From NCBI RefSeq assembly GCF_018305005.1, contig NZ_JAGQEG010000033.1:1-55931 (forward strand): a stretch of 55,931 nucleotides of DNA, given 5' to 3'. This stretch comes from Collimonas silvisoli (GTDB taxonomy: Bacteria > Pseudomonadota > Gammaproteobacteria > Burkholderiales > Burkholderiaceae_D). Under the pieces are notes generated by a model, which was not told where the DNA came from, made no database searches, and worked only from the letters and a program-made list of their open reading frames with translations. Both the position numbers and the translations under genes were made by a program. Below are positions 28,739-53,263 of the stretch, in pieces (positions within the stretch are counted from its first letter, which is position 1; each line of letters opens with the position of its first letter).

Positions 28739-28739
28739 G

Positions 28740-29833: not shown

Positions 29834-29845
29834 GGCGTTCGGCTC

Positions 29846-32444: not shown

Positions 32445-32448
32445 GGCG

Positions 32449-33681: not shown

Positions 33682-33690
33682 GGCGGCCAC

Positions 33691-34155
33691 CTAATTAGAC
33701 ATCCAGTTGCCGACGTCAGCGTTCTCGCCGGTACCGCCAGGCTGGCCATCTGCACCCAGTGTGCTCAGGTCCAGTTCGCCATGATCGCCAGGCGATTTGT
33801 AGATATAAGGACGGCCCCAGGGATCTGCCGGCACCGCCTTCTTCAGATACGGCCCCTGCCATTTTTCTTCGTTATTCGGCTTTACGAAAAGGCTATCGAG
33901 ACCCTCCTCGGTAGTAGGGTAGTGCCCCACGTCGAGCCGGTATTGATCGAGCGCCTTCTCCAGCGAGACAATCTGAGCGCGCGCGATTTTGGTATTGGAT
34001 TTGCCGATCTGGTCGAAATAACGCGGAGCGACCATACCGGCAAGAAGGCCGATGATGACAATGACGACGAGCAGTTCAAGCAGCGTAAAACCTGCGCGCC
34101 GTTGGTTAGGGGCCGGCGCAGGATGCTCCAAACTGGCGGCAGCGAGACGCGTCAT
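33691..34155 (-). CDS. gspG: Major pseudopilin GspG
   Basis: A 154-aa protein with a leader, prepilin site RRAG/FTLLELLVVIVIIGLLAGMVAP with Glu +5, and the GspG core: ALDQYRLDVGHYPTTEEGLDSL, PADPWGRPYIYKSPG and a C-terminal GADGQPGGTGENADVGNW calcium-binding loop. It is recognisably the major pseudopilin. ATG 34155 (MTRLAAA) follows AGGGAGA. It is the first gene of the secretion operon, so the promoter lies in the repeat-rich gap upstream. Confidence 0.95.
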   Translation of the reverse strand: MTRLAAASLEHPAPAPNQRRAGFTLLELLVVIVIIGLLAGMVAPRYFDQIGKSNTKIARAQIVSLEKALDQYRLDVGHYPTTEEGLDSLFVKPNNEEKWQGPYLKKAVPADPWGRPYIYKSPGDHGELDLSTLGADGQPGGTGENADVGNWMSN

Positions 34156-34564
34156 TATTATTCTCCCTAGGCCGGCGTGTGGTATTTTTTTCGACGGTTC
34201 TTCTGTGCTTGGATTTCTAGAAGACCCTGCGAGACCGACCCCTATGCTCTTCAGAATACTACCGCCTGTCTTAAAAGCTACTGGGTATATTCCCTCCATT
34301 TGGGGGGGTGTATGGGTAGTTATCCTCAGCCTTCTAAATAGACCTGCTTTCCGCAATGAAGCACGCCAGCGCAAAGCCCCGAAAAAGCATCACCCATACC
34401 CGCCGCCTGGTTTGAAATAGTAGGAAATCCCAGTAGAGCGAGAACAGCTCCGCAGTCGAAAAATATTCTCTTCGAGCAATCGATAACGACACCACGGCAA
34501 TCACCGTTGAAGTTGTTTTTGAAGTTGCAGTTGCAGTTGACGTGAATTCCGCATTGGGACGTTG

Positions 34565-34925: not shown

Positions 34926-35558
34926 TCACTTCGACGCCACCAATTCATGGTAAGCCCCCAACAACTCCGCCACAGTAGCAAAACCATCGATCCGCAACCA
35001 AGGCCTGCCAGGCGCAGCCCGCAACAGCATCACCGGATTATGCTTCATCTTGTCGCCCCGATAGACATCGAAAGCCCGCTGCGTAGCAACACTCGCCGCC
35101 ACCGTCCCCGTGTAATGCTGCCACTCCGGCCCCGCCCCGTATTTCTTCGCATACTCCGTCAAACGCGCCGGCGTATCCTGCTCCGGATCGATCGAAATCG
35201 ACATCATGTGCACCTTGTCCCGCTCGCTGCCAAGATCGCTCTGCAACTGCGACAGCGTCTGGCTGATCATCGGACAGATCGAGGTGCAAGTGGTGTAGAT
35301 GAAAGTCAGGATCACCGGCCGGCCGTCGTTCAGCTCATTGATAAGCGACACCGCTTTGCCATCCTCCCTCACCAGCGAAACCGCCGGCGGCGTGTAATCC
35401 ACCGTCGAACGCATGATCTCCGACATCATGTGATGGTGGTGAGCATGCGGATCCGGTGTGCTCACAGCGGACACGCTAGCGGCAAAGGCCAGCGGCGCAA
35501 TCGCCCCAATGGCTGTCAGCGCCAGGGTAGCGGCCAAGGATTTGATGACTGTTTTCAT
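34926..35558 (-). CDS. SCO1/SenC-family copper chaperone/thioredoxin-like protein
   Basis: A 210-aa exported protein with signal peptide (cleavage about residue 26), a His/Met-rich metal-binding stretch (DPHAHHHHMM) and a thioredoxin fold with the CxxxC copper motif TTCTSICPM and a late His (MKHNPVMLL). SCO proteins deliver copper to or reduce cysteines of cupro-enzymes such as cytochrome oxidase. Here no oxidase genes are present, but three multicopper-oxidase-like genes are upstream in the same direction, so they are the likely clients. GGAGCAATTGCC precedes ATG 35558. Confidence 0.9.
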   Translation of the reverse strand: MKTVIKSLAATLALTAIGAIAPLAFAASVSAVSTPDPHAHHHHMMSEIMRSTVDYTPPAVSLVREDGKAVSLINELNDGRPVILTFIYTTCTSICPMISQTLSQLQSDLGSERDKVHMMSISIDPEQDTPARLTEYAKKYGAGPEWQHYTGTVAASVATQRAFDVYRGDKMKHNPVMLLRAAPGRPWLRIDGFATVAELLGAYHELVASK

Positions 35559-35602: not shown

Positions 35603-37288
35603 CTACGGCACAACCCAGTCGCTGTCAGCCACCAGCCGCACGCCGTGCGCGTCGGCAAACCGGACGATATAGCCGCCCTTGGAGGCAAAGCGCTGACCCG
35701 ACGCCAGCGTCAGGCGCGGATAGTAGCCGGTGAGGATGCGGCGTTCCAGCATGTCCTCGATGCGCTCGACCAGATAGTCGCCGACAAACGTATCGACCAT
35801 GTGGCTGAGCGTCTCCGCCAGCAGCCCGCAGGCAAGATAGGTGTCAGCCTGAACCTGCTCCGCCACCACAGGAATATGCCGGATCGAGAACCAGCCGAAC
35901 GCATAGTCGACCCGGTAGCGGCGGCGCTCCGGCAGATCAACCGGATAGGCCAGACGTGTGCTGTAGCGCCAGCTCGACGGCAACGGCGCCTGCTCAAGAC
36001 CGCCCATCAGCCCCGACATGAAGACGGTAGTCGACGCTGCCGGCGCGGGGATAGTTTCGAGCGCGGCGATATCGGCCGGGCGCAGCCACAGCACCAGCGT
36101 ATTGGTGCGCGCCCCTCCCTTGAGCGCCTTGGCGATACTCTCGCCGGATTCGAGAACCCGGCTCGACACCGCAATCCCACGATGTTTGAGCGCCACGGCG
36201 AGCGCCTGGGCGCCCGCCTCGCCGCTGTCGCCGGCGCGATAGATCTGGCGCACGCTCTTCACCCCCTTAGCACTATCTGCATCGAGAATATTTTTTGCGA
36301 TCAGTTCTGCTTCCAGCAATACGCCCTTGGACAGATACAGCGAATAGAAATCGCTGTCACCGCCTACCGGCGTCTCGACGTTGGGAAACAGGCAGGGTAC
36401 CGCCTCATGCTCACAGAAGGCATGAACCGGCGCCCAGTTCTTGCCGCCCAGCCCCGACACCACCGCAAACACCGGCTCCGCGGCCAGATGCTGTTTCAGT
36501 TGCTCTTCCCAGCCTGCCGCCGGGCCGGTCAGTTCCCAGACGTGCAACTGCCAGCGGCGATTCACCATGAACATCATTCTGCGCGAGGTGCGCAAGGGTG
36601 GCGTGGCGCCAAGCGGGAAGGCGTTCTTGTCGGTGAAGTATTGTTCCAGCACAGCGAGCATGCCGCGCCGTTTCACCGGATCTGCATCCGGCGTAATGAT
36701 GGTGGCAAAGTGCAGTACCGTATCCGTGACCCCGCGCGGCCGGCGCTGATCGAGACGCTTCAGATAAGCGATCAGCGCCGCCATGTCGGCGTCGTTCAGC
36801 GCGAACTGCGGCATCAGGTAACTGAGCGGCTTGCCTTCCGAGTTGATGCCGGCGCGGATCGCCCTGGCGATGGTCTCATCGGTGTACGGCTCGCGATCGG
36901 CGCGTATGCCGTCGACGTAGGGCAGGTCGAGATCCGCCATGTCTTTGGCGCGCGGATGGAACAGATAACGACCGGTGATGGGCGGGATGATGTCGCGGCC
37001 GGCTTTGGCGCCAAGGCCGCTGGGCCGATGACAATTGATGCAGGCCGCAGCGGCGCCCTGCAGCCGCACCCCGGCCTCGCGGGTGGCCTCAAGCGGCTGA
37101 CCCGAGCCCTGTATGCCGTGCCGGAAGATCGCTTCGCCGGCGTCTGCCGGCGCGCCGCCGCTGGCCTCGCTGGCCGGCGCCAGTGCGAGCGGCGCGGCGC
37201 ACAGGGCGCCGGCATGAAACACCAACGCCAACACCAACGCAAAAAAAGGCACAAGCGCGAGCGATGCGGGCCGCCACACTTGTGCCAA
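35603..37288 (-). CDS. Cytochrome c fused to a periplasmic substrate-binding-like domain
   Basis: An exported protein of about 561 aa. After the signal peptide it has one class-I cytochrome c domain (CINCH near residue 81, distal Met probably in SYLMPQF), then a domain of about 350 residues resembling ABC/Leu-binding-protein-type receptors (VFAVVSGLGGKNWAPVHAFCEHEAVPCLFP). I favour TTG 37288 because GAGGGG lies 6 bp upstream and the signal peptide then starts at residue 1; ATG 37399, 2 bp after the upstream stop, would add 37 non-signal residues and has no SD. It could couple ligand sensing or a protein contact to electron transfer. Partner unknown. Confidence 0.75.
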   Translation of the reverse strand: MAQVWRPASLALVPFFALVLALVFHAGALCAAPLALAPASEASGGAPADAGEAIFRHGIQGSGQPLEATREAGVRLQGAAAACINCHRPSGLGAKAGRDIIPPITGRYLFHPRAKDMADLDLPYVDGIRADREPYTDETIARAIRAGINSEGKPLSYLMPQFALNDADMAALIAYLKRLDQRRPRGVTDTVLHFATIITPDADPVKRRGMLAVLEQYFTDKNAFPLGATPPLRTSRRMMFMVNRRWQLHVWELTGPAAGWEEQLKQHLAAEPVFAVVSGLGGKNWAPVHAFCEHEAVPCLFPNVETPVGGDSDFYSLYLSKGVLLEAELIAKNILDADSAKGVKSVRQIYRAGDSGEAGAQALAVALKHRGIAVSSRVLESGESIAKALKGGARTNTLVLWLRPADIAALETIPAPAASTTVFMSGLMGGLEQAPLPSSWRYSTRLAYPVDLPERRRYRVDYAFGWFSIRHIPVVAEQVQADTYLACGLLAETLSHMVDTFVGDYLVERIEDMLERRILTGYYPRLTLASGQRFASKGGYIVRFADAHGVRLVADSDWVVP

Positions 37289-37401
37289 AACAACCCCTCG
37301 AAAAAATATTCTTATCCTTGCAAAACCGCTTTCTCTGCCGAGCATCGGCCGAGCCGGCCAGATCGGCTCAGCGCTCAGCCTCGACAGTTGCGCGGCCATG
37401 G

Positions 37402-39211: not shown

Positions 39212-39748
39212 TCATTCAACCAGCAGCCCGTCAAAATGAAAGGAACCGATCACCACATTGACACGGTCCCCCGCTTTAATCAGATTGCCCTTGTTGGAAA
39301 ACACCATCCAATACTCCTGCCCGATTTCCGGCGTACCGGTCTGCCGCAGCTGGCCGATTTTGTCCATGACCGGGATTTGCAGCAAGGCATGGCTCTTTTG
39401 CCCGAGCAGGTAAGGCGTCGCAATCTTTTCGCTCAATGCCTTGGCTCTGACCGGGTCGATAACCCGGTAGCTGAAGCGAATCAGGTTGCCCGATGCGGTG
39501 CGGCGCACGATCAGATTGTCGACACCGCCGTAAGCCTGGTAGAAAGTCTTGGCGTGCCTCGGTATCTTCACCGGCTGATAGGGAGAAGACTTGCCGGCCG
39601 CCGGCCGCGCAGCGCCAGGAACAGCCGCCGGAGTCTGCTGTGACTGGGCGGATCGCGCCGAGGCCGCAGCGGCCCACAGGCTGCACGCCAGCAGCGTCGC
39701 GATGGCCGCCATCGTCGCTGATCTCACTGTCTCTGCGGACATGTTCAT
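39212..39748 (-). CDS. Exported protein of unknown function
   Basis: A 178-aa protein with signal peptide (hydrophobic about residues 11-28). The mature part holds IPRHAKTFYQAYGGVDNLIVR, NLIRFSYRVIDPVRAKAL and a C-terminal small-beta region (LIKAGDRVNVVIGSFHFDGLLVE). I do not recognise the family. It lies between the small exported protein and the LolA-like pair, so it is likely part of the same envelope system. AGGGAAAAAC precedes ATG 39748. Confidence 0.75.
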   Translation of the reverse strand: MNMSAETVRSATMAAIATLLACSLWAAAASARSAQSQQTPAAVPGAARPAAGKSSPYQPVKIPRHAKTFYQAYGGVDNLIVRRTASGNLIRFSYRVIDPVRAKALSEKIATPYLLGQKSHALLQIPVMDKIGQLRQTGTPEIGQEYWMVFSNKGNLIKAGDRVNVVIGSFHFDGLLVE

Positions 39749-40240: not shown

Positions 40241-43200
40241 CTAAGCTTTAACACCCTTGCGTCGAGCGGTTCCAGTGAGACGCACCGGTGAACCCGAGAT
40301 AGGGACGTTAGCCTTGATGACCAAGGTTCCGCTCGCGGTACCCGCCGCAGTCGGCGCGAACACTACATTGATCGTGCACCTGGCATGGGCGGCCAGGACC
40401 GCATGGCAGGAGCCGCCTGGCGTCGCCCGGGCGAACGGCCCGGTGAATGTCAGGCTGATGTCCTTCAGTGCGGCGTTTCCGGTGTTGTGCAGCATCAGGG
40501 TTCGCGACTCTCTGGTCATATTGATCCCAGCATTTTGGAACAGCGAGGAGATCGACGTTAATTTATCTTTTTCTTTATCGCCCACCGTATTTCGGAATAG
40601 CAATGCGACCGGCGTTGCGTTATTGAGCACTGCATTTCCGAACGCCAATGCGATCGGCGTTACATTTGCGATCGGGGCGGGCGCTACCGCCAACTCGACC
40701 GCGCCGATATCGTAGCCGCCGGCTTGCGGCCTTCTGGTGCCAAAGATGTCATATGGAGGCGCATTGACCCCGGTGGCGGTATTGATCGCCGGCGACCCCG
40801 CCGCAATGGAGTAGTTGCCAAGCGGCGCACCGTAGCCGGGAGCCCCGGATGCGACGGTCGTATTGGACAAAGACAGCGGTCCGTAGAACATATTGATCCA
40901 CTGGTTGCCTTCATCCGGCGTTGCCGCAGGCATCAAGGTGAACAAGGGGTTGGGCAGGACCGCATCGGCGATGCCTGGAGGCACGGCGTAGCCGTTGCCG
41001 CCACCTTCCGGCGGCACCCGCGAACCGTTGCAGTACTGACTGACAACGCCTGGATTGGCGCCCAGGTTGTGTGCCCCCGGATAGTCGGCGGCGTCAGTCA
41101 GGATCGAGTACCGCGGGCTGAGCGCCAAGCCCGAGCCATGGTCGCTCGGCCCCCCGTCGCCAAAGGCGCCGATGTCCCAGTAGACCGCGTTAGGGTCGCA
41201 ATAGCCCGTTTGATGGCCGGCCTGGTTCAAGGCCGGATTCAGCGTCACCAGGTTTTGCAAGCCCGGTATTGCTGGATTAGGGCCGCCAACGGTGATATAG
41301 AACGAGCGGTTCTGCCAGAACAGATTATTGGTCAGCACCGGGTTCGAGAAACACGCGCTCGGCACCGGGTTGGCAGAGCAATTAACGCCGGTCTGTGCCG
41401 CGATCAGGTTTGGCGTGTTGCGCGCCGTCTCCAGACCTGCCGGCTCATATTGCGAGGTGGTGGTCGGGCTGCAGGTCGTGTCCGCGCCAACTGTGGTGCA
41501 GTGCGGTGGGCCTACATTGGCCTGGGTGGCTGCGGCCGTGTTGAACAGTACTCCTGCCGAAGCAGTCGCGTCGTTGGAAACGATCGTGTTGTTGATGATG
41601 TTGACGCGCACCGCATCCTGCAGCGAGACGCCGCCTCCGGCCCAGCCGGCGACGTTATTCGCAATGATGTTGTTGGTGACGGTGACCTTATACCAGTCAT
41701 TCGGCCTGTGAGGGCTGCGCTGGACGTCGGTGCCGTTGATGCTTTGCAGCCGCAGGCCGCCGCCTTTACCGCTTTCGGCGGTATTGCCGACGATCAGGTT
41801 ACTGTCGATCATCAGCCCGGGCCCGGCGCCGTCGGCAAGCTCCGGCGCGCAGTCCATGTCGATCACCGAGTTCTCGCAGAAAGTACCGTCCGGGGGCACG
41901 CCTTGGGCGATGATGCCGCCGCCGTAGGTGGGCAAGGTCGGATTGTTGCTCTGGTTGAACAGGACCCAGTTATGCGAGATGTCGCCGTTATAGCTGAAGC
42001 CGAAGTGCGCGACACCGCCGCCGTCGCCGCTGCTCATGTTGCCGCACACCCAGTTGTAGTTGAAGCGGTAGTTATCGGCGCCCGAGCAGAAGGTGACGCC
42101 GCCGGCCGAGGACGGCGTGGTCGAGTTGATTTCGTCGCCGTAGGCAGCGTTCAACATGACCGCATTGTGATGCACGTTCACATGGGTGTTGTACTCGAAC
42201 GGTAACTGGGTGATGCCATCCGCAGACATGGTCCCGGGCGGAACCTCCACCAGGCCAACGGTAATGCCGCCGGTGAGCGTTCCGGCATTGCCGAAGACCC
42301 GGTTGTTGGAGACTTCCGTATAGTGGTTCCAGCCGTGCAAGAAGATGCCGCCGCCGCCTTGAGAGCTATTGGTGAAAGTGATGCCATCGATGCGCGACGG
42401 GTTGCAGAAGAAGTCGCTTGGATAGTTGGTGCAATCCGCGTTGCTGGGAGGGAAAGTGAGCTGCGTGCAGACGGCGTCGTCAGTCGTGCCGAAGCAGTTG
42501 GGGTCGGCTTGCAGCACGCCGCCTACCAGCACGTCCCGTGCTCCTTTTGCCAGGACCGTGATGGCTGCGCCTTCATATGCGCCCAGCAGCGTGGGTTCTA
42601 TCAGGAGCTCGCCCAGATTGCCGTTAAGGTTACTGTCCCAACTGATAACAGGCTCACCCGGTATCCCATCCACCTTGCGCTGCATGGTCGGCGCACAAGA
42701 GTATGTGCCGGTCGGGTCATAAGGGTTGCCCGATGAAATCACGCCACCGTTGAGTGACACGCCAAACAGACAGTCAACCTGGCGCCGCCAAGGATCCATC
42801 TTGCCCGAGGGGTGGGTGTTGGCGTTGACCGTCACGGAGGCAGCGCCTACGCCTTGCAGGCGGAGCGGCTTCCACATGAGCAGCATTTCGCTATAGGTGC
42901 CCGGGCCGACGATCAGCATGTCGCCTGGGGTAGCGTTGTCGATCGCGCTCTGGATAGCGTTACCCGCGGCATTTTCGCCATTGATGTAAGTCGGCGTGTT
43001 GCCGCCGATGGTCACGGTAACCGTGTCGATCGATTTCTTGCCGTTGCCGGCCGTGATCACCAGCTCGCCGCAAGTGGCCGGCAGCAGCGTGCCGCGTTGC
43101 TGGATCGGGCAGCTCGACTGCGCCGGGCTCAACAACGGCGCCAGCACCTTGATCTGCGTATCGCTCCATGAGGTCACCGTCGCATTGACGCCGCCAATCG

Positions 43201-46200
43201 TTACCGATCCGCTGCCCTGCGTTGCGCCGAAACCATAGTGGCGCGTGATGAACTTCTGGTTGTAGGGCGCCGTGGTGGCTGAAGGTCCGGAGTAGGCATG
43301 GTTCAGTACCGTGGCGTCACCGGTGTTATTGATCGTGTTGATCGTCAGTACGCTACCCGCCACTTTGACCCAGGGACCGGCGCCGCCGCCGGCAAGCGTA
43401 TCGCCAGCCACTGTCGAAATGGCAGGTGTAGCGTCCGGATAGGCGCAGTCAGGCGGGTTGTAGCCTTCGGCGAAGGCCGAGACCGGCACCACCGGCGTAT
43501 CCATGTACTGGGTCGATCCGGGCATGAACGGAATCTCGTAACAGAACTGGCTGTAGGCCGGATTGAACAAGGGGTCGAGCATGGTCTGGCCAGGGTGCGC
43601 CGGATCGGGGATCGGGCCTGGGTCGTTCATGCAGACGACCATCATGGTGGGGGCGTAGCCGGTTGGATTCGGCGGATTGACTTGCCAGGTCGAATAATTC
43701 AAGCCGTTGTAAATGCCCCACTGGTCGGAATACGTGCGGGATATTTCATTGCCGGCGAAATCCTTGAAGGAGATCGGCACGTTCGGAACCGCGAATTTCT
43801 CGCCGAACTGCGGCGAGTACGGATCGAATTCGGAAGAAAAATCGTCCAGCATGAAGCCAGTGTAGTGCGCTGCGACGTGGGCGGAACTGAACACCCAGAA
43901 TTTCGCCAGCACCGTCATCTGGTTATCCAGCTGCACTTCCTTGCGGTCGCACAGGTGCCGCGAAGCCCCCGCGAACGGCGCTACTTCCTGTGCCCCCGGG
44001 AACAAGCTCATATAGTCGGGCACGATGCGCAGTGCGCCGACGCAGGGCCAGAAGGCTTCGACACTGCCGGTGTCGCCCTCATGCCGGGGGAAAGTAGTCG
44101 AGCCCAGATCCTGGGTCGGATTCTGCGCATTGTTCTGGTTATAGGAGGAATTCACCGCGGCCTGGTCGGGCACGATGAAGATGTTGCCGATGCCGGCGAA
44201 CTGCTGCGTCACCGGTGCAATGTAGTTGTCGCCGATGAGGATGTTCTTGTCTTCCTCTTTCACCAGTTCATAGCCAGGCGGCACGATGATTTCCACCACG
44301 TACTTGCCAGCGGGCAGCATGACGGTGCCGTCACCGCTCGGATTGGCGACGCAAACGGTACAGTTGCTGGCGGTCGGCTTGCCGGTGGTTGTACTGGTGG
44401 CCGTCACGCTGGGGAAATGATACATCCCGTCGAAAGGCGCAGGCTGCAGCTGGTTGAAAGCATGCATGCCGTCATAGCACTTGAACTGGCCATTTGCTGG
44501 CAGGGCACGGTGCGACGGATCGAGCCACTGGGTCGTGCCCTTCAAGGTAAAGAAGAAGGGATCGGTGCTTTCCTGGCCCGGACAGTTCATATTGGGCACG
44601 CCGTCCGAGCGGAAACCCTGGGCCCAATCGTCCCAGCTGCTGGTCTGGGTGGTATCGACCAGCGTCAAGGTAGCGCTGCCGTCCGGGGCCGTGTTCTTCT
44701 GATACAGGTTGACGGTCACGTTCGGCACGTTCGGCGTCCACTTGGTGTGGATCAGCAACGTGGGATCGTCGAATGGCCGGGTCGAGGCGTAAATCACCTC
44801 GCCTTTGATGCCGCCGTTCTCAGTCGGCGCGAACGGCGTCTTGCCGAACTCGATGAATGCGCTCTGGCCGGAGAAGCCTTGCCAGCCGACCGTGGTCACC
44901 GACGGCGGCTGGATGCTGCCGGTGGACGGATTGGCGGCACTGCTGCCGGGGCCGTTCTGGATCGAAAAGCCGGTGCAGTCCGCATTGTCGCAATACACCG
45001 CACCCGGTACCCGTTGCGCTACAGGGAGATGGGCCGTGGCCGATTCCAGCGTGTTGGCAAAGTTCGCGGCGATGGTCGAGGCGCCGCCGCCAGGGGTGCC
45101 GTCCGGCGGGCCGCCGGCGTCATACACCGTGTGCACGCCGGTCTGTTTGAAGCGCGTCGTGTCGGCTTCCACCACATACCAGTTAAACAAGGGGAACACT
45201 TCGTTGAACGGCACATAGCCGTTGAGGTCCGTGGTGCCGAAATTGGAAATGCTGCCATCGCGGAAGCGGACGATGGTCGGCACCAGCCCCAGTCCGGGCT
45301 CGTCAGCTTGGGACACGCCGTCGCCGTTGAGGTCGATGAAGGTCCGGGTGTAGAGATTGGTGTGCCATTGCAGCACCGGCAGATCGCCGACGTCTTTCAC
45401 CTGATTCCCCGTCAGTTGCACCGCCGTCGCCAGGCCGTCGACGATCTGGTCGTTCCATTGGTCAAGCACGGTCAGCCTGAAGGTGCCGTTGGGGATACCG
45501 CTGAAGCTGAACTTGCCGTCGGCGTCGCACTTGGTGAAGGCAATATCCTCGCCGTCCGGATCGCCCAGGCTGACATAGCACTGGGTGAAGCTCAAGGAGC
45601 TGCGCGAGCCGCTGCCGTAAAGATGTTCGTTAGGCGGACGGCTGTAGTGCAGATTGGTGATCCTGCCCGTGACCGAATTGGTGCACGAGATGCCGCTGCC
45701 GGATGGGGCGGCGTCGCACATCCCGGTTGCCTGCGCATTGGTGCGGCGGTCATTGATGATTTTCGGATTGGCGAAGCCGATGACGACGTGGAAGCCGGCC
45801 GGGCCGAACTCCTGGAAGTAGGCTGGCCCGCCTATCTTGATGAAAGCGTCATGGGATTTTTGTCCGTCCAGCGTGTTGGTCTGGTGCCACTCCTCTCCCC
45901 GGGCGATACGATCGGCTGCCGGCGTGGCGACCACAGCGTATTTGCCGGGCATCAGGTTGGCAATGATGGCCTGCCCGACCAGGGGCGAGAAGGTCTTGCC
46001 ATCCGACTCGTATTTCGGACAAGTTGGAATCATGCCGACCAGTCCGTCGGTCGACGCTGAAATCGGGCAGGCATTGAGTCCGGTGGAGGGATCGATCATT
46101 CCCTGCAGGGAGTTGGATAGCGGCATGTTGAACATGTCGTAGCTCATCTGTCCGGTCGGGTCGCCGGTGGCGCCGGCATCGTCCCAAAGCTTGATCTCAA

Positions 46201-48820
46201 ACCCTCCCAATCCGGGCTCGCGGGCTGTCCCGAAGGCAGCGGTGGCGATGCCGCCGCTGACGTCGAATTCACCATTCAGAGGGGCGTCATCCTCGAACAC
46301 AAACACCGAGATCTTGGCAGTCTGCATCGGCGTTTGCGGCACCAGCACGTTGACCGTTTTCATGGCGGGTGCGATCGGTGCGCCGCTCATGCTGTGGCCG
46401 CAGGCTCCGCTTCCAGGTGCAAAATCCGCGCCGCCAGGGCCTGAAGAGCAATCCAGAGCGATGCTGAATTGTCGCTGCGGCCCGGTCGGGTTGCTTGGAT
46501 CGACCGGTTTCGGAGCGCCTGCACCGCTACTGAATGAGTTACCGGCGTCGCCCGGCAAAATCGAGATGTAGTAATGCTTGGCCGGGTCTAGAGCGACCTG
46601 GCTGGGGTCGACTGCGACCTGTTGCACAGCGGTGGTACGGCAAGTGCCGTTGCCGATGTCGCACACGGCTGGCACGTGCGCATTGCTGACCGGGTCGAAC
46701 ACCGTCTGCCCTGCCTCGCAAGCGACTTTGCCGACACAGCCGGAAGCCACTACCGGCATGTAGCTGACATGGAAACTGGCGCCGAGGCTAGGCACCGGCA
46801 TGGGCGGGCAAGTGGCCGGCCGCGTGGCGGAGTTCACCTGGCATGCGGGGTCGATCTGGAAGGTGCGGTCTTCCTCGATGATCCAGCGGTAGTCGTTGAG
46901 CTGAACCGGAGTCGTCGTCTTCACGCTGGGCGCGTCAAATACTTTGACGACCAGGCCGCTGCCGCCCTTGAATGTCACAGTCACGGTGGCCGGAGCCGAA
47001 CTGGTGTTCTGCGAATTGATTGCTGTGTATTGGAATGACACCGTCGCGGTAGAGGCGCCGCTGGGGACGGTCGCCGGCGCCGCGTTGAAAGAGCCGTCCG
47101 GGTTCAGGGTCACAGTGCCGCCGACGACATTGGTGGCGGCGGAGGCATGCAAGGGATGTCCGCCGGGATCCTTATCGTTGCCCAGCACGCCGGGCGGGCT
47201 GATCTGCAGCCGCGAGGCGACGTAGCTGGTGTAACTGTCGTTGTTGGCAATCGGCGCGCCGCTCAGGCAGCCGGAGGCGGCGGTACAGGCGGCCAGGGTC
47301 ACTTGCGCCGTGATCGCCGGGTTGCCGTTCGCCATATAGGTAAAGCTGTCGGAGACGGTGCCGGCATTCGGCACATAGGTAAACGTGCCGTCCGGATTCA
47401 AGGTGAGCACGCCGCCGGCAGGCGGCGTCGCCACCTTGACGCCGTAGACCCGGATGTCGTTGGCGATCACGCCTTTGGCAGGATCCGAGACGGTCAGGGT
47501 ATTGCCAGGGACCAGGAAGTAATTGTCAGGATTGGCAATCGCATTCTGGGTGCCGGCCGCCACCGGCAGCGCGCCGCCGTTGACGCTGACATAGGCCAGC
47601 ATGCCGCCGTCGCGCTGATTGTTGGTGGACAGGCTGAGCTGGCGGTCGAACACGGGCAGCGCCAGGCCCCCCGCAGCCGGGGCATTCATCATCACATCGT
47701 AGGTCTTGCCGGCGGCCATGAATACTTCGCTCTGGACCCTGTGCATGCCGGGCAACGGATTGCCGTCTTCAGCGATGAGCGAGAAGCCGGAAACTGCCGG
47801 GTTGCCGGTTTGCGCGCCGACCACAGCAGGCACATGCATGCGCAGGCCGGCGTTGACGAAACGCAGCAAAACCTGGCCGGTAGCGGCAGGAGCGACAATC
47901 GAAATGGCGGACCTGGTTTCGTTGCCGCGGTCAAAGCTGACGCCATTGATCAGGTAGTAGCGCGGATCGTAATTCACGGCTGGCGGATAGCAGGTGTGAA
48001 AAGTCGGCGAGGCCGGATTGCCGCAGCCGCCGGGCTGGCCCGACCATACCGCTGTCTCGCTGAAGCCGGTAGTCGCTACTGCCGTCGCCACAGCGGTGTT
48101 TTGCGCAGCGTCGATTTCGCTCAGCAGCAGCGGCACATCGGCATCGTAGCCGATACCGGGATACGCCTGGGCCTGGGCAGGACCGTTGGCAGGAGTCCTT
48201 ACCACCAGCACGCCGTACAGGCCCATCGGTCCCTGAATCGAAGGATGCGTGCCCGACTCGATCAGGTAGGTGCCGGGTTTGAGGTTATTCCAGGTCATGG
48301 ACTGGGTCATGCCGTACGCTACTTCGGTAGCGAACGACTGCACCCGGGGCCCTTGGGCCGGCGGCGTGAACTTTGCTGGCGGGGTTAACACCGCGTTAGC
48401 GACGGGCCAGGTGGTCGCAGTCTTCGCCGAATGCGTAGGGCTTGGCGTGCTGGTTGCGGTACTTCCCAGGCCGCCGCCCAGCTGCCCTACGATCACCAGC
48501 GAAGTCGGCACGCTGGCCGGCAGGCTATTGGTGAGATTGATGGTCAGGGCTCCCGGCGGCACGGTAATCACCACCGGCGACCAGGCTGCCCCGGCGTTCG
48601 GGTTAGCGGCAGCGCAAGTGGCAGGCGCCACCGCAACTGCGCTGCAGGCGTAACCCCACATCGGCACCAGTTGTCCATCCGGGAGCGTGGCGTTGGCGGC
48701 CCGCGCCGTCAGATTGACGCTCTGTGCGAAGGCCCCGCCACTCGCCATGACTAACATCGATGCCGCTAGTCCTGCCTTGACCAAGCCTGACAGCATGGCT
48801 TTGACCTGATTGGTTCTCAT
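40241..48820 (-). CDS. Giant (2859-aa) secreted multicopper-oxidase-like multidomain protein
   Basis: Residues 1-33 are a signal peptide. About 35-415 are cupredoxin-like and resemble the next gene's product, but the copper motifs are gone: TSLVIVGQ (106-113) stands where HxHG belongs and GTYLIESGTHPS (183-194) where HxH belongs. Two Ig/cadherin-like repeats follow (LTLNPDGTFTYVP near 473; VTLNPDGSFNA near 572), then SdrD/carboxypeptidase-regulatory-like beta domains (about 650-1900; e.g. FIDLNGDGVSQADEPG near 1165), an IPT/TIG-like domain (near 1867), a right-handed beta-helix (about 1950-2650) and a C-terminal ASH-like domain (2710 on) with a basic end. GGAG precedes ATG 48820. Likely a surface scaffold of the oxidase system and a T2SS cargo. 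Mn oxidases such as MofA are also very large, but catalysis is not supported by motifs here. Confidence 0.8.
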   Translation of the reverse strand: MRTNQVKAMLSGLVKAGLAASMLVMASGGAFAQSVNLTARAANATLPDGQLVPMWGYACSAVAVAPATCAAANPNAGAAWSPVVITVPPGALTINLTNSLPASVPTSLVIVGQLGGGLGSTATSTPSPTHSAKTATTWPVANAVLTPPAKFTPPAQGPRVQSFATEVAYGMTQSMTWNNLKPGTYLIESGTHPSIQGPMGLYGVLVVRTPANGPAQAQAYPGIGYDADVPLLLSEIDAAQNTAVATAVATTGFSETAVWSGQPGGCGNPASPTFHTCYPPAVNYDPRYYLINGVSFDRGNETRSAISIVAPAATGQVLLRFVNAGLRMHVPAVVGAQTGNPAVSGFSLIAEDGNPLPGMHRVQSEVFMAAGKTYDVMMNAPAAGGLALPVFDRQLSLSTNNQRDGGMLAYVSVNGGALPVAAGTQNAIANPDNYFLVPGNTLTVSDPAKGVIANDIRVYGVKVATPPAGGVLTLNPDGTFTYVPNAGTVSDSFTYMANGNPAITAQVTLAACTAASGCLSGAPIANNDSYTSYVASRLQISPPGVLGNDKDPGGHPLHASAATNVVGGTVTLNPDGSFNAAPATVPSGASTATVSFQYTAINSQNTSSAPATVTVTFKGGSGLVVKVFDAPSVKTTTPVQLNDYRWIIEEDRTFQIDPACQVNSATRPATCPPMPVPSLGASFHVSYMPVVASGCVGKVACEAGQTVFDPVSNAHVPAVCDIGNGTCRTTAVQQVAVDPSQVALDPAKHYYISILPGDAGNSFSSGAGAPKPVDPSNPTGPQRQFSIALDCSSGPGGADFAPGSGACGHSMSGAPIAPAMKTVNVLVPQTPMQTAKISVFVFEDDAPLNGEFDVSGGIATAAFGTAREPGLGGFEIKLWDDAGATGDPTGQMSYDMFNMPLSNSLQGMIDPSTGLNACPISASTDGLVGMIPTCPKYESDGKTFSPLVGQAIIANLMPGKYAVVATPAADRIARGEEWHQTNTLDGQKSHDAFIKIGGPAYFQEFGPAGFHVVIGFANPKIINDRRTNAQATGMCDAAPSGSGISCTNSVTGRITNLHYSRPPNEHLYGSGSRSSLSFTQCYVSLGDPDGEDIAFTKCDADGKFSFSGIPNGTFRLTVLDQWNDQIVDGLATAVQLTGNQVKDVGDLPVLQWHTNLYTRTFIDLNGDGVSQADEPGLGLVPTIVRFRDGSISNFGTTDLNGYVPFNEVFPLFNWYVVEADTTRFKQTGVHTVYDAGGPPDGTPGGGASTIAANFANTLESATAHLPVAQRVPGAVYCDNADCTGFSIQNGPGSSAANPSTGSIQPPSVTTVGWQGFSGQSAFIEFGKTPFAPTENGGIKGEVIYASTRPFDDPTLLIHTKWTPNVPNVTVNLYQKNTAPDGSATLTLVDTTQTSSWDDWAQGFRSDGVPNMNCPGQESTDPFFFTLKGTTQWLDPSHRALPANGQFKCYDGMHAFNQLQPAPFDGMYHFPSVTATSTTTGKPTASNCTVCVANPSGDGTVMLPAGKYVVEIIVPPGYELVKEEDKNILIGDNYIAPVTQQFAGIGNIFIVPDQAAVNSSYNQNNAQNPTQDLGSTTFPRHEGDTGSVEAFWPCVGALRIVPDYMSLFPGAQEVAPFAGASRHLCDRKEVQLDNQMTVLAKFWVFSSAHVAAHYTGFMLDDFSSEFDPYSPQFGEKFAVPNVPISFKDFAGNEISRTYSDQWGIYNGLNYSTWQVNPPNPTGYAPTMMVVCMNDPGPIPDPAHPGQTMLDPLFNPAYSQFCYEIPFMPGSTQYMDTPVVPVSAFAEGYNPPDCAYPDATPAISTVAGDTLAGGGAGPWVKVAGSVLTINTINNTGDATVLNHAYSGPSATTAPYNQKFITRHYGFGATQGSGSVTIGGVNATVTSWSDTQIKVLAPLLSPAQSSCPIQQRGTLLPATCGELVITAGNGKKSIDTVTVTIGGNTPTYINGENAAGNAIQSAIDNATPGDMLIVGPGTYSEMLLMWKPLRLQGVGAASVTVNANTHPSGKMDPWRRQVDCLFGVSLNGGVISSGNPYDPTGTYSCAPTMQRKVDGIPGEPVISWDSNLNGNLGELLIEPTLLGAYEGAAITVLAKGARDVLVGGVLQADPNCFGTTDDAVCTQLTFPPSNADCTNYPSDFFCNPSRIDGITFTNSSQGGGGIFLHGWNHYTEVSNNRVFGNAGTLTGGITVGLVEVPPGTMSADGITQLPFEYNTHVNVHHNAVMLNAAYGDEINSTTPSSAGGVTFCSGADNYRFNYNWVCGNMSSGDGGGVAHFGFSYNGDISHNWVLFNQSNNPTLPTYGGGIIAQGVPPDGTFCENSVIDMDCAPELADGAGPGLMIDSNLIVGNTAESGKGGGLRLQSINGTDVQRSPHRPNDWYKVTVTNNIIANNVAGWAGGGVSLQDAVRVNIINNTIVSNDATASAGVLFNTAAATQANVGPPHCTTVGADTTCSPTTTSQYEPAGLETARNTPNLIAAQTGVNCSANPVPSACFSNPVLTNNLFWQNRSFYITVGGPNPAIPGLQNLVTLNPALNQAGHQTGYCDPNAVYWDIGAFGDGGPSDHGSGLALSPRYSILTDAADYPGAHNLGANPGVVSQYCNGSRVPPEGGGNGYAVPPGIADAVLPNPLFTLMPAATPDEGNQWINMFYGPLSLSNTTVASGAPGYGAPLGNYSIAAGSPAINTATGVNAPPYDIFGTRRPQAGGYDIGAVELAVAPAPIANVTPIALAFGNAVLNNATPVALLFRNTVGDKEKDKLTSISSLFQNAGINMTRESRTLMLHNTGNAALKDISLTFTGPFARATPGGSCHAVLAAHARCTINVVFAPTAAGTASGTLVIKANVPISGSPVRLTGTARRKGVKA

Positions 48821-48836: not shown

Positions 48837-50462
48837 CTAATTGGCTTCGTTTATCAAGAAAGCCTGCGGATCCACGAGCATCATCATCATCATGCCGCCC
48901 GGGAAGATATTGCTGGTAGTGATCTCGCGTTCATTGTGCGAGTGCCACATGAAGGCAAAGCCTGCTTCGCTCTTCGACGGGTTAGCCTGCGTGTTGTTGG
49001 GCGGAATAGAACTCGCGGGGCCGACAGCGCGGGCGGTCGCATCCGGCCCGAGATAAGGACTGCCGCCATACCAAAAACCGTCGGTCAGGATGTTCGCATC
49101 GGGCAGCGTCACCGGGCCGCCGCTGCCGACCGCCCCGAACGCATGCGCCTCCAGCGGCTTGTCGTGATCCTGGCACCACTCGTAGTAGTTAGGCGCGAGC
49201 GGATCCGCCGTGTAATAACCGTTGGCGTCCGGAATGCAGACCACCGGCTTGCCGAGGTAAGCCGGGAATGCCTGGTCGGTGTACAGCGCGCCGGCGGTAT
49301 GGCCGTAGACGTCCCAGTTCAGCCCTCTGCCGGTCCAGTAGAAGATGCCGTCCATCGCCAGGCCCGGCGTGGTGGTGGTGGTGAACAGCAGCGGTCCGGC
49401 CGGCTTGGTCGGATCGGTCTGGCTGAGCAGCAGGTTGCCGTCGCGGGCGAGAATGCGGACGTGGTTGCCGTGCTCGTGGAACGGATGCTGCCAGCGGCCG
49501 TTGCCGATCACCCGCAACAGCACCAGCTCGCCGGGATGCATGTGCGGATTGCCGTTGTACGGCTGGTGCGGGTACTGCACCGCGTAGTTCGGATCCATGT
49601 CGTCAGGCATGGAGCGGCCGTTGATCAGGAAATAGGCTGGGTGGTAGGGCTCGGTCTCGACCACCATGCAACCGGTGGACTGGGCGCACGCCACGCCAGC
49701 CTGCTGCTGCGCCTGGGAGTGGATGCGCGGATCCATCTCGGCGAACTGGAACAGGTACTCGCGGTCGTAGCAGCTGGCGCTGTGGTTGTAAGCCGCTGCG
49801 GCGTTGCGGTAGTCGGGCTGGCCGTCCGGCAATGTCGCGGCGACGGCGCGGCAACCGGCCGGCACTGCGGTCGGCAACACGATGATCGCGCCGTACAGTC
49901 CCATCTCGATCTGCAGGTCGCTCTGGGTGCCGCTGTAGTAGCTATGGGTACCCGCCGTGCTAGCGATGAAGCTGTAGGTGACCGAACCGCCGTGCGCCGC
50001 TTCCCGCGTCAGCAGGCCAGGTACGCCGGTTGGCGTGGCGGGGCAAGATCCGTCCGGGTTCATGACGGCGGTGCAGACATTGAATCCGGGGAACAGGATC
50101 GAGGTATTGCCTGCCGCGGCCGGCAGGTTGTTGGTAAGTACCAGCGTCACCCTGTCGCCCTGGTGAACGATCAGGGTCGGCCCCGGCACCTGCATGCTCG
50201 GGCAGGCCGCCCCCGGCATCCCTGCCGGCGAAAAGCCGGACGGCGCCGTGCTGCAGCCGTAGCCCCAGGAATAGACGTTCATGCCGTCGGGCTGGCTGAT
50301 AGTGCTGTCCGCCGCATTCAGATTGAATGTCGTCCCCGTGATGCCCGGAGCGGCGGCTTGCACCGCCGGCGGACAGAGCAGCAAGAGCAGCAAGGGCAGC
50401 AAAAACGGCGCGGCGAGCCGCGCAAACTTCGCGCTCCGATGGTTGTCGATTATGTGGCTCAC
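48837..50462 (-). CDS. Multicopper-oxidase-like protein with C-terminal copper motifs only
   Basis: A 541-aa exported protein (signal peptide 1-37). The N-terminal cupredoxin domain is degenerate: NTSILFPG (119-126) and GTHSYYSGTQ (171-180) lack HxHG and HxH. The last domain keeps HPFHEHGNH (326-334; His326, 329, 331) and WHSH (506-509), but no HCH cysteine, so it cannot form a type 1 site. MMMMM (524-528) is striking. The GTG start at 50462 follows AGGAGAACAGCC. It has exactly the motifs missing from the downstream-numbered partner 50473-51972. Together they may make one active oxidase. Confidence 0.82.
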   Translation of the reverse strand: MSHIIDNHRSAKFARLAAPFLLPLLLLLLCPPAVQAAAPGITGTTFNLNAADSTISQPDGMNVYSWGYGCSTAPSGFSPAGMPGAACPSMQVPGPTLIVHQGDRVTLVLTNNLPAAAGNTSILFPGFNVCTAVMNPDGSCPATPTGVPGLLTREAAHGGSVTYSFIASTAGTHSYYSGTQSDLQIEMGLYGAIIVLPTAVPAGCRAVAATLPDGQPDYRNAAAAYNHSASCYDREYLFQFAEMDPRIHSQAQQQAGVACAQSTGCMVVETEPYHPAYFLINGRSMPDDMDPNYAVQYPHQPYNGNPHMHPGELVLLRVIGNGRWQHPFHEHGNHVRILARDGNLLLSQTDPTKPAGPLLFTTTTTPGLAMDGIFYWTGRGLNWDVYGHTAGALYTDQAFPAYLGKPVVCIPDANGYYTADPLAPNYYEWCQDHDKPLEAHAFGAVGSGGPVTLPDANILTDGFWYGGSPYLGPDATARAVGPASSIPPNNTQANPSKSEAGFAFMWHSHNEREITTSNIFPGGMMMMMLVDPQAFLINEAN

Positions 50463-50472
50463 GGCTGTTCTC

Positions 50473-51972
50473 CTAGACGCAGGACTTGGTGGTCGGGTTC
50501 ACGCTGTTGCAGATGTGGACCTCAGTCATCAAGCCGCCGAAATTCTCGGCATCGTTCGACAGGTGATCAAGGTTCGGCGTGTACAGGTAATACACCGCGC
50601 CGACCGGGTGGTTGACGGTGTCGCTGGCGTCCAGGATGACGTCGATCGACTCGCCGCCGCCGAGCGTGATCGAGTTGGTGTTATAGGTCAGGTCGTTGCC
50701 GGACAAGTCGCGCAGCAAGCGTGCGTTGAAACCGATCACGTGCATCGGGATGCCAAGCGAGGCCAGCGTCTGGAACTCGGTAACGTCGAGATCCGAGATT
50801 CTGAGCAAGGCCTTGCCGCCAAGCGGAATATTGATGATGGTCGGCAGCGGCTGCGAAAAATGCTGCGTGCCGTCCGACACTTCGGTCGACATCGGGCCTG
50901 GCGTCACGGTGTCCGGGTAGCTGCGCCCGTTCAGCAGGAAGTGCTTGTCCTTCATGTCGGTAAACGCCTCTGGATTGAAGGTCATGCCGACGAAGTGGAA
51001 GTTGGGATCGAAACCGTGGATCTGTACCGGATACTCGACGTCATAGGCGGTCGAACCGTCGCCGTCGTTGTAGGCGTACAGTGTCGGCGTGCCAGATTTG
51101 TTGTTGAGATGCGTGGTTGTATTAACCGGCGGCAGCGGCGCCGGGCACAGGATGTCGCCAGCGCACCTGGTGCGCGCATCACCCTGTTGCGCCAGCAAGC
51201 CGGCATACAGCGTGCCGCTGGCCACCCGATTCTGGCGCGGCCGCACATAGATCTGGCCTACCATGCCCATCTGCAGGTGTTCCGGCGGCGTGATGTGGCA
51301 ATGCCAGAAATAGGTGCCCGCTTCCGGCGCCAGGTAGTAATAAGTGAAACTGGCGCCGATATTGATGGCGACCGAAGCGTCCGGCACACCGTCATAGAAC
51401 GAGGAGGCGTTCGGATAACCGTGGAAGTGCACGGTGTGCTTCTCGAACAGGTCGGGACGCATGATCATGCCGACGTTGGTCAGGGTCAGATAGAATTCGT
51501 CATCCTCGTCGATCGCCATGGTCGGCGCCGGGATGTTGCCGTTCATGACGCCGATATCCATGATCGGCCGCGGATCGACATGGCCGGTAATCTGACCGGC
51601 GGGAATCGAATCCGGATCAGGGGTGAGGCCGACCGCGCCGTTGAAGGTCGGATCGCCGACCGGATCGCCGATTGTGTTGAACACCGACGCCGGCTGCGTA
51701 CCCGGCATGCCGTTCCTGATGTCGGCCAGGCCGGACAAGGGACCGAAAGAGAACATATAGGTCTGATTGCCGTCGCCCATCGTGGAGTAACCGTCGCCAC
51801 CCGAAATCTGCTGGCATTTGATGGCGCCGCTGACACCCGCCGTGGCGACGGCAGGATGGAGCACCGTGCTGGTCGGGCATTGCACCCGGAACGACTGGGC
51901 GTATACCGGCGATGCAAAGAATACCAATAGCAGCGCGTACAAGCCGCGGCTAAATAACTGTGTGCTGAACAT
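50473..51972 (-). CDS. Multicopper-oxidase-like protein with N-terminal type 1 copper domain
   Basis: A 499-aa exported protein (signal peptide 1-25, ending VYA/Q). The first cupredoxin domain has KHTVHFHG (178-185) and HCHITPPEHLQMGM (224-237). His179, Cys225, His232 and Met237 fit a type 1 copper site with nitrite-reductase/two-domain-MCO spacing, and His182, 184, 224 and 226 are trinuclear-type ligands. The second domain keeps only PMHVIGF where HPxHxHG is expected and no HxH. ATG 51972 (MFSTQLF) is chosen for GGAGGT 5 bp upstream. It lies first of the three oxidase-like genes, 10 bp from the next. Exported to periplasm, then possibly by the T2SS. Confidence 0.87.
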   Translation of the reverse strand: MFSTQLFSRGLYALLLVFFASPVYAQSFRVQCPTSTVLHPAVATAGVSGAIKCQQISGGDGYSTMGDGNQTYMFSFGPLSGLADIRNGMPGTQPASVFNTIGDPVGDPTFNGAVGLTPDPDSIPAGQITGHVDPRPIMDIGVMNGNIPAPTMAIDEDDEFYLTLTNVGMIMRPDLFEKHTVHFHGYPNASSFYDGVPDASVAINIGASFTYYYLAPEAGTYFWHCHITPPEHLQMGMVGQIYVRPRQNRVASGTLYAGLLAQQGDARTRCAGDILCPAPLPPVNTTTHLNNKSGTPTLYAYNDGDGSTAYDVEYPVQIHGFDPNFHFVGMTFNPEAFTDMKDKHFLLNGRSYPDTVTPGPMSTEVSDGTQHFSQPLPTIINIPLGGKALLRISDLDVTEFQTLASLGIPMHVIGFNARLLRDLSGNDLTYNTNSITLGGGESIDVILDASDTVNHPVGAVYYLYTPNLDHLSNDAENFGGLMTEVHICNSVNPTTKSCV

Positions 51973-52120
51973 ATGACCTCCATCATGTTCCGCCAGCGCC
52001 ATGCGCTCGGAACCTCGCCGTTTACTTCATCTACAACCGTGGTCGCCGACTCCCATTTTTCTGTCCAACCCAGCGCCATCCCAATATCATTGCGCTCCGT
52101 GCTGCGGCGCCATGACTTCA

Positions 52121-53263
52121 TCAATTCGACTGCATGCCGTTGGTCCCCCCGCGCATCACCACCGAATGGAGCTTCCAGCGAACCTCCACCGTGGTGCCGC
52201 TGCCGGGTGCGGATTTGATCGCAAAAAAACCGCCGGTAGACTCCGCCCGCTCGCGCATGCTGCGCAAGCCGATACCCTGCTGGTTGACCGGCCCGCCTGC
52301 AAATTGCTTGGCGTCGAAGCCGATACCGTTGTCGCGAATGCCCAGGATCAGGTTGCCGTGATCGCTCAGCATCGAGACCGCGACCGTTGAGGCGCAGGCG
52401 TGCTTGGCGGCATTGTTCATCGCCTCCTGGACGATGCGGAAGATTTCCGACTTGAGATGCGCTGGAATCTCCGCTTCCTCGACGTTCAGATGGCGTTCCA
52501 GCTTTATGTTGTCGTAGGCATCCTCGTATTTGCGGCAATGCCCTTCTATGGTCGGAATCAAACCCAGATCATCGAGCGTGCTGGGCCGCAGCTCGCTGGA
52601 AAGGCGCCTGACGTCATCCATCGCGTCGCGCAGGCGCTGCACGGTCTCGTCGAGAATGTGCCCGCCCTCCTGCACCTTGCCCTGTTTCAGCCTGCGCGAG
52701 GCGTCTTCGACCATGAACTTGATCATCGCCAGCACCTGTCCGATACCGTCGTGCAATTCCGACGAAACACGTTTCAGCTCGACCTCATGGGCGACAATCA
52801 GGCGATTGGCAAAATGCTGAAGTTCCAGTTCGGAGTGCTGCAGCGTATGCGACGAAGCCTGGCGCTTGGCTTTTTCTGTCAGGACCAGCAAGATAGAACG
52901 CGTCGCGCCGTCGCCATGATCGATCGGAACCGGCACCACAAACACCGCACTCTTGCGGCCGCTGCGGCCATGCAAAACCAGGTCGAATGGCTCGAACACG
53001 CCGCTGCTTTGACTGAGCAGATTGCTGAGGGCGCTGCCGCCGTCCACAACCAGCCGCATCAGCATCGTGCCTAGCAGTTCCGCCACTTTGAACCCGAGCA
53101 TCTCGGCAGCGCTGTCATTGATGCTGGAAATGACGCCCAAGTTATCGACGACAAGCGACGAAATCCCGAACAAGTCCGTGAGCTCGCCGAATTGCGGCTC
53201 CGACAATTCGATCTCGCTGCGCATTTTCCGCATCACGCCAAGCACCTGCTGCAATTTCAACAT
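52121..53263 (-). CDS. Soluble PAS-domain sensor histidine kinase (HisKA_3 type)
   Basis: A 380-aa cytoplasmic kinase with no membrane helix. PAS domain about residues 30-110 (LVVDNLGVISSINDSAAEMLG), a linker coiled coil, HisKA_3 with phosphoacceptor His171 in SSELHDGIGQ, and HATPase_c with EAMNNAAKHA, DNGIGFDA and GIGLRSMRERAE. It belongs to the NarX/DegS class that pairs with NarL-type regulators, and such a regulator ends the same co-directional block at 23171-23947. AGGGAGTACGGCT precedes ATG 53263. The PAS pocket has no visible haem or flavin signature. Confidence 0.92.
   Translation of the reverse strand: MLKLQQVLGVMRKMRSEIELSEPQFGELTDLFGISSLVVDNLGVISSINDSAAEMLGFKVAELLGTMLMRLVVDGGSALSNLLSQSSGVFEPFDLVLHGRSGRKSAVFVVPVPIDHGDGATRSILLVLTEKAKRQASSHTLQHSELELQHFANRLIVAHEVELKRVSSELHDGIGQVLAMIKFMVEDASRRLKQGKVQEGGHILDETVQRLRDAMDDVRRLSSELRPSTLDDLGLIPTIEGHCRKYEDAYDNIKLERHLNVEEAEIPAHLKSEIFRIVQEAMNNAAKHACASTVAVSMLSDHGNLILGIRDNGIGFDAKQFAGGPVNQQGIGLRSMRERAESTGGFFAIKSAPGSGTTVEVRWKLHSVVMRGGTNGMQSN

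Follow-up and report, generated by a model that had tools for sequence, protein, structure and literature searches.

Complementary copper ligands in two adjacent cupredoxin proteins of Collimonas silvisoli suggest a multicopper oxidase centre shared between chains

Can the copper centre of one multicopper oxidase be made up by the products of two different genes? The question is raised by a locus of Collimonas silvisoli, within a stretch of 55,931 nucleotides (NCBI RefSeq assembly GCF_018305005.1, contig NZ_JAGQEG010000033.1) that was analysed as a whole and is called the window below. Two adjacent genes on its minus strand, A (50473..51972, 499 amino acids) and B (48837..50462, 541 amino acids, with a GTG start), each encode a protein of two cupredoxin domains. 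Two copper sites are required in a multicopper oxidase: a type 1 copper, bound by two His, a Cys and usually a Met, and a trinuclear cluster whose eight His come from two domains, four from each. An earlier note, made from the letters of the window alone, had proposed that A and B each keep one part of this set and form an obligate heteromer with the active centre at the subunit interface. Comparison of the locus with its relatives indicates that the inference of a shared site is very probably right. It also brings in a third two-domain chain, C, and an adhesin-like part, D.

Translation of the window finds both genes on the minus strand where the note had put them, with the motifs it had described. 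The ligands of A lie in domain 1. The motif HTVHFHG (51418..51438, minus strand; alignment positions 158-164), whose His are invariant, would by analogy supply a type 1 His, a type 2 His and a type 3 His, while HCHITPPEHLQMGM (51262..51303, minus strand; alignment positions 203-216) would in the same way supply two type 3 His and the Cys, His and Met of the type 1 site. Domain 1 of A so holds a full type 1 set and four of the eight trinuclear-type His, and domain 2 holds no ligands. B is the complement: there are no ligands in domain 1, and the other four trinuclear-type His are found in domain 2, within HPFHEHG (49467..49487, minus strand; alignment positions 294-300) and WHSH, of which the HSH part lies at 48936..48944 (minus strand; alignment positions 475-477). 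At the place of the type 1 Cys, domain 2 of B has a Ser (S476). The coordinates of HTVHFHG, HCHITPPEHLQMGM, HPFHEHG and HSH were confirmed by translation. Residues are given here by alignment number, to which 21 is added for the window residue of A and 32 for that of B; the residue numbers in the note agree with this conversion. Added together, the ligands of A and B come to one type 1 site and one trinuclear site, as had been claimed.

Is this division a peculiarity of the window? Eighty-seven loci were compared, five of them being omitted from the A alignment and three from the C alignment where a contig end cut the gene or less than 70% of it was aligned. The A residues H158, H161, H163, H203, C204, H205, H211 and M216 are invariant in all 82 aligned rows, and the B residues H294, H297, H299, H475, S476 and H477 in all 87, so that the missing type 1 Cys of B, also stated in the note, is a Ser throughout. 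Of 87 frames each, 83 of A and 86 of B match a strict motif pattern. The four A frames that miss it are truncated by a contig end, and the sole miss in B (locus L105) has HSFHTHG with all five His retained. The possibility that a full set had been overlooked in one of the proteins was rejected, since no A or B frame among the 87 loci has one. A ligand split conserved in this way goes far beyond chance.

The same pattern bears on the kind of centre. Copper nitrite reductases have the same two-domain fold and score as relatives, and A and B might then form a heteromer of that kind, with type 1 copper in A and a catalytic type 2 copper between A and B. The type 2 site of a copper nitrite reductase, however, consists of three His and has no HCH/HxH trinuclear set, whereas A and B together have eight conserved His in the order H..H.H/HCH and H..H.H/HSH, which is the trinuclear set, and their best matches are oxidases. 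A nitrite-reductase site was rejected on the eight His, and we consider this reading very improbable.

Traces of lost ligands are seen outside the two live domains. A His stands at the site of A H203 in domain 1 of B in 54/87 rows (Tyr in the window), and at the site of B H294 in C in 57/84 rows; neither constitutes a copper site. All three chains share a non-ligand DPxxH motif after domain 1 (A H305 in 82/82 rows, B H216 in 84/87, C H241 in 71/84). Outside the ligand motifs and DPxxH, B has one more His, at position 401 (alignment number), in 87/87 rows.

How widely is the arrangement kept? A scan of GTDB species genomes with the B alignment gave 359 relatives at threshold, and the best 80 were examined. 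Lineages were taken from the record titles, many of the records being metagenome bins. The named lineages among these best 80 of 359 are mostly Proteobacteria in the wide sense, delta groups included, and further Planctomycetes, Nitrospira, Myxococcota, Bdellovibrionales, Hydrogenedentes, Bacteroidales, Acidobacteria, Verrucomicrobia, Kiritimatiellae and Lentisphaerae. B is matched over more than 80% of its length in two Cupriavidus and six Paraburkholderia records. The A/B arrangement is thus kept far outside the order to which the window belongs. A adjoins B in 80/80 loci that were reached from B, and all 44 loci with full flanks contain the complete series of A, B, C and D. Gene order was read in 88 rows from 87 different loci, since L035 and L040 coincide; the unrelated L034 was excluded. 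The order D-A-B-C is found in 54 rows, a fusion of D and A in 11, a fusion of D and C in 9, and A-B-C without a visible D in 10; the other 4 differ by strand, a cut contig or frame reading. A and B are fused in none of the 88 rows, nor among the matches listed in the two genome surveys described next; in 20 whole genomes with the cluster, the only very long frame matched by the A profile is a D+A fusion.

The two surveys were not steered by the cluster. One covered 100 genomes, with the single protein P0002 in one search and a profile in the other; the second covered 398 genomes and scored at most four candidates per genome. A and B were found in the same 6 genomes of the first and the same 2 of the second, the window's own included in both counts, and among the matches listed no genome had A or B only. 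The co-occurrence check which the note had suggested thus comes out in its favour. The scores leave a wide gap: for A, true matches reach at least 510 bits and other matches at most 79, and for B in the 398-genome survey the values are at least 532 and at most 108. Over 79 loci the pairwise distances of A and B correlate with r = 0.85, and those of A and C and of B and C with 0.76, as would be expected of co-inherited genes.

Could the pair be a degenerating oxidase without function? Ligands are gone from half of each protein, and in a relative of the same genus (G011, loci L004 and L038) an in-frame TAG falls within about the first 63 codons of B, perhaps because the gene is broken there or the sequence is in error. 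But the split and the gene order are identical and the ligands invariant over many lineages, and proteins of Sideroxydans lithotrophicus ES-1 that very likely belong to this system have been seen by proteomics (PMC12016527). The pseudogene reading was rejected on the conservation of ligands, and we find it hardly credible.

There is a further question of what kind of oxidase A and B came from. The B profile matches two type C oxidase structures, 3g5w (Nitrosomonas europaea) and 2zwn (metagenome), over both domains, with 45.5 and 49.6 bits for domain 1. In domain 2, HPFHxHG of B aligns on HAIHTHG of 3g5w with 19.3 bits, and HSH aligns on HDH with 6.4 bits, which is in order but not significant alone. 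Domain 1 of A aligns with the type 1 domain of 3g5w, and the C profile matches 2zwn over both domains. A, B and C each have two cupredoxin domains. AlphaFold models give the same neighbours. The model of A (472 residues, 72 rows, mean predicted local distance difference test score 78.2, predicted template modelling score 0.81) is nearest to 3g5w, with a target template modelling (TM) score of 0.76 over 440 columns; that of B (509 residues, 78 rows, with scores of 81.7 and 0.87) is nearest to 2zwn (target TM 0.73, 500 columns), followed by 3g5w (0.62). In profile-profile comparison A and B match in register with a probability of 99.85%, and C and B with 100%. In a tree of 22 A, 22 B and 22 C sequences with 7 ordinary oxidases, A, B and C each form one clade, with bootstrap values not fully settled. 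Ten ordinary proteins of 349-382 amino acids, from 17 loci inspected, combine the motifs of A domain 1 and B domain 2 in one chain, in the series HT(I/V)HWHG...HCHVNVNEH...H(S/A).H.HG...HDH. As profiles, models, tree and one-chain ordinary proteins agree, A, B and C are, judged by sequence, paralogues that go back to one kind of ancestral chain and have lost its sites in a complementary way.

The note had called the oxidase type B. By definition a type C oxidase has its type 1 site in the N-terminal domain (PMC13151041). That is where it lies in A, in 82/82 rows, while B and C have none, and the nearest structures 3g5w and 2zwn also have the type 1 Cys in domain 1. The type B assignment was therefore dropped, and the predicted parent of A, B and C is a type C two-domain oxidase. 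A and B are not filed as plain members of type C, because no chain holds a full set.

What, then, is the third chain? In the window C is residues ~35-423 of a protein of 2859 amino acids encoded next to B (gene C+D, 40241..48820, minus strand, ATG at 48820). It is a two-domain cupredoxin unit without a usable ligand set, no His or Cys exceeding 85% of its 84 rows. The remainder of this protein is D, made of Ig/cadherin-like, SdrD_B, beta-helix and choice-of-anchor material, with a giant SdrD_B / beta-helix part at residues ~746-2709. D occurs as its own gene, joined to the N-terminus of A, or joined to the C-terminus of C; a fusion with B is found in none of the 88 rows. Seven of the nine D-C fusions come from the window, from its genus and from two plasmid loci. 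C stands alone, as a frame of 300-360 amino acids, in 21 loci.

We regard it as quite likely, from these sequence comparisons, that A, B and C form a heterotrimer which derives from a type C ancestor, keeps one active site of three, at the A/B interface, and is tied to D. Two-domain oxidases are trimers in which the trinuclear cluster is held by residues of two protomers (PMC13151041). In the ancestral homotrimer each of the three interfaces, formed by domain 1 of one chain and domain 2 of the next, would have held a type 1 and a trinuclear site. Gene duplications would have been followed by loss of two of the three sites, the ligands being kept only in domain 1 of A and domain 2 of B. When A, B and C are placed into the ring of the two-domain trimer, one interface would be live (A domain 1 with B domain 2) and two would be dead (B domain 1 with C domain 2, and C domain 1 with A domain 2). 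Judged from the ligands, A alone or B alone would have no trinuclear site as a homotrimer. Of the heteromer that the note had proposed, the interface site gains from the complementary ligands, the co-occurrence and the precedent in PMC13151041; its two-chain view missed the paralogue C, and because C exists a heterotrimer is likelier than a dimer.

One alternative is that A and B alone are the enzyme, as a heterodimer or as mixed trimers or hexamers, and that C is the secretion or docking end of the adhesin. The absence of a ligand set in C and its joining to D in 9/88 rows would fit this. However, C and B are paralogues that share a two-domain layout, C is present in all 44 full-flank loci, it stands alone in the 21 loci mentioned above, D is joined to A in 11 rows as well as to C in 9, and two-domain oxidases are trimers (PMC13151041). 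We think this arrangement unlikely, though it is the first to be considered after the heterotrimer.

Another is that A and B work separately, A as an electron-transfer type 1 protein and B to carry copper or as a scaffold, and that there is no trinuclear centre at all. A trinuclear site is indeed impossible for either chain alone, and oxygen reduction is no obvious need of hosts presumed to be anaerobic. But the four and four trinuclear-type His would be superfluous for a type 1 site, yet they are invariant in all rows and sit where ordinary oxidases with a full set have them. Separate roles for the two proteins seem to us improbable, more so than an enzyme of A and B alone.

Several points weigh against the A-B-C heterotrimer. 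Covariation between chains was taken from the top 50 pairs, with 53 effective sequences. Two of the predicted interfaces show a modest excess, A domain 1 with B domain 2 (19 pairs seen, 14.2 expected) and B domain 1 with C domain 2 (14 seen, 8.5 expected), but the third, A domain 2 with C domain 1, shows 12 against 14.3 expected, and a similar excess is found at pairs that were not predicted, A domain 1 with C domain 2 (14 against 10.7) and B domain 1 with C domain 1 (12 against 8.7); covariation thus speaks for neither side. Parts of B domain 2 are modelled by AlphaFold at low confidence. The join of A with ordinary oxidases in the tree rests on long branches and unsettled bootstrap values, and because long branches meet there no order of duplications was read from this grouping. 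It could also be that C is part of the adhesin and not of the enzyme. Finally, several host records bear the names of anaerobe lineages in their titles (Desulfobacteraceae, Desulfobulbaceae, Geothermobacter), for which oxygen reduction is not the obvious task. Seven loci named for sulfate- or metal-reducing lineages (L055, L089, L092, L096, L103, L108 and L109) retain the ligand motifs; what use would presumed anaerobes have for a centre of oxygen-reducing type?

If the heterotrimer is right, the type 1 copper of A would receive electrons from an extracellular donor, our best guess being a reduced metal or mineral. The electrons would cross the His-Cys-His bridge to the trinuclear site between A and B, where oxygen would be reduced. 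D, as a fusion with C or A or as a neighbouring gene, would anchor the enzyme to the cell or to a surface.

Shine-Dalgarno-like stretches are seen by eye upstream of all three starts, GGAGG before the ATG of A at 51972, GGAG before the GTG of B at 50462, and GGAG(G) before the ATG of C+D at 48820; from an alternative start at 52002, A would have 509 amino acids. The gaps are 10 bases from A to B and 16 bases from B to C+D. Because of the short gaps and the stretch before each start, A, B and C+D look like one operon. After C+D comes gene E (39212..39748, minus strand), a small protein of 178 amino acids without a Pfam match at E 0.001. Neighbour homologues were counted in 43 loci with both 10-kilobase flanks and 79 loci overall. 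E has a homologue in 39 of the 43 and 61 of the 79, often with a lipobox-like start, and it is joined to C in one locus (L114). E looks like a fifth component of the system that had gone unrecognised. On the minus strand E is followed by a weakly LolA-like protein, below the Pfam cut-off, and a protein of 289 amino acids without a Pfam match. Further along lie a c-type cytochrome protein (35603..37399, minus strand; 598 amino acids, a single CxxCH) and a SCO1/SenC copper chaperone (34926..35558, minus strand; 210 amino acids), with homologues in 16 and 17 of the 43 loci. N-terminal signal-like stretches are also seen by eye. Together with the adhesin-like D, E, SCO1 and the cytochrome c they suggest that the complex lies outside the cell, is loaded with copper and has an electron connection to the cell.

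Type II secretion genes follow at 24913..34374 (minus strand), with GspG, GspF, GspE, a secretin, a pseudopilin-like protein of 156 amino acids and interspersed frames without a Pfam match. They suggest an export route in the window, but only 5-7 of the 43 loci have homologues close to the cluster (GspG 7, GspF 5, GspE 5, secretin 6). The secretin (25380-28187) bears a C-terminal cohesin domain (Pfam PF00963), which is unusual in a secretin. Beyond the secretion genes there is a response regulator (23171..23947), and upstream of A there is a sensor histidine kinase (52121..53263, minus strand) with a homologue in 3 of the 43 loci.

Has the cluster been seen before? In Sideroxydans lithotrophicus ES-1, Slit_1812-1818 comprise a cytochrome, SCO1/SenC and three cupredoxin proteins in tandem (PMC12016527; PMC5566968 was the first to note them). 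The window likewise has its three cupredoxin genes in a row, and SCO1/SenC and a cytochrome lie close by. Matched by description, the Slit_1812-1818 cluster is very likely this system. In a 2025 proteome study Slit_1816-1818 were raised on magnetite; two of these carry canonical oxidase motifs, and the third is larger, with adhesin and polysaccharide-lyase-like domains. Similar clusters were named in Paraburkholderia, Ralstonia, Anaeromyxobacter and Steroidobacteraceae (PMC12016527). The available passages of PMC12016527 and PMC5566968 do not state complementary ligands or a shared site for the Sideroxydans cluster. In a search of open-licence PMC papers, subscription papers and supplements lying outside it, no statement of an active site split between chains was found, and for heteromeric or split multicopper oxidases only papers on 'heterodimeric laccase' came up. 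The cluster is already in print, while the shared active site and the heterotrimer appear to be new. They would have a practical side. If they are true, expression of either 'oxidase' alone yields inactive protein, which is a warning for tests of the cluster. The cluster is common, with 359 relatives at threshold, and has been linked to the oxidation of magnetite (PMC12016527), so that an enzyme system which faces minerals would become accessible to biochemistry once it is clear which chains belong together.

How does it compare with known systems? The Bacillus manganese oxidase MnxEFG likewise needs partner subunits encoded alongside, but its oxidase is mnxG only, and MnxE and MnxF are ~12-kDa proteins of a different kind, unlike A, B and C (PMC5622069). 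Fungal heterodimeric laccases (POXA3) join an oxidase chain to a different second chain, as A/B would; there the partner is a small protein beside the laccase chain, and the available text of PMC3129051 has no mention that it gives copper ligands. OmpB of Geobacter and MofA of Leptothrix are oxidase-like proteins of the outer surface, tied to a cytochrome, a copper chaperone or isomerase, and metal redox, but they are single genes, and the Sideroxydans trio is stated not to be homologous to them (PMC5566968). No OmpB/MofA-like long frame was recognised in the 20 whole genomes holding the cluster, so that the relation to them rests on the literature.

Oxidases of two domains have been described as trimers built from a single kind of chain, and three- and six-domain ones as monomers (PMC13151041). 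The type C oxidases 3g5w and 2zwn have the same two-domain fold, with the type 1 site in domain 1 and trinuclear halves in both domains, and their trinuclear site lies between protomers of a trimer (PMC13151041), as proposed for A-B-C. In them every chain has a full set, whereas here the set is divided over two chains and the third is empty. In the six-domain oxidases (ceruloplasmin, hephaestin, Fox1 and the bacterial MnxG group) trinuclear sites were lost at some interfaces and kept at one; in the bacterial ones it lies between domains 2 and 3, with type 1 copper in domain 2 only (PMC3600357). Summed over A, B and C there are six cupredoxin domains and one ligand set, which would be comparable if the three chains assemble, but they are spread over three genes instead of a single polypeptide, A and B being unfused throughout the gene-order rows. 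An active site from two different gene products would, if true, be novel in its arrangement and provide a step that lies between the two-domain and the six-domain enzymes. In its fullest form the proposal sees in the obligate A-B-C heterotrimer a widespread, secreted enzyme that survives as an intermediate between the homotrimers of two-domain chains and six-domain oxidases of a single chain such as ceruloplasmin, with one shared trinuclear centre, carried on a giant adhesin, drawing electrons from solid minerals and kept even by presumed anaerobes; to this whole we would give an even chance.

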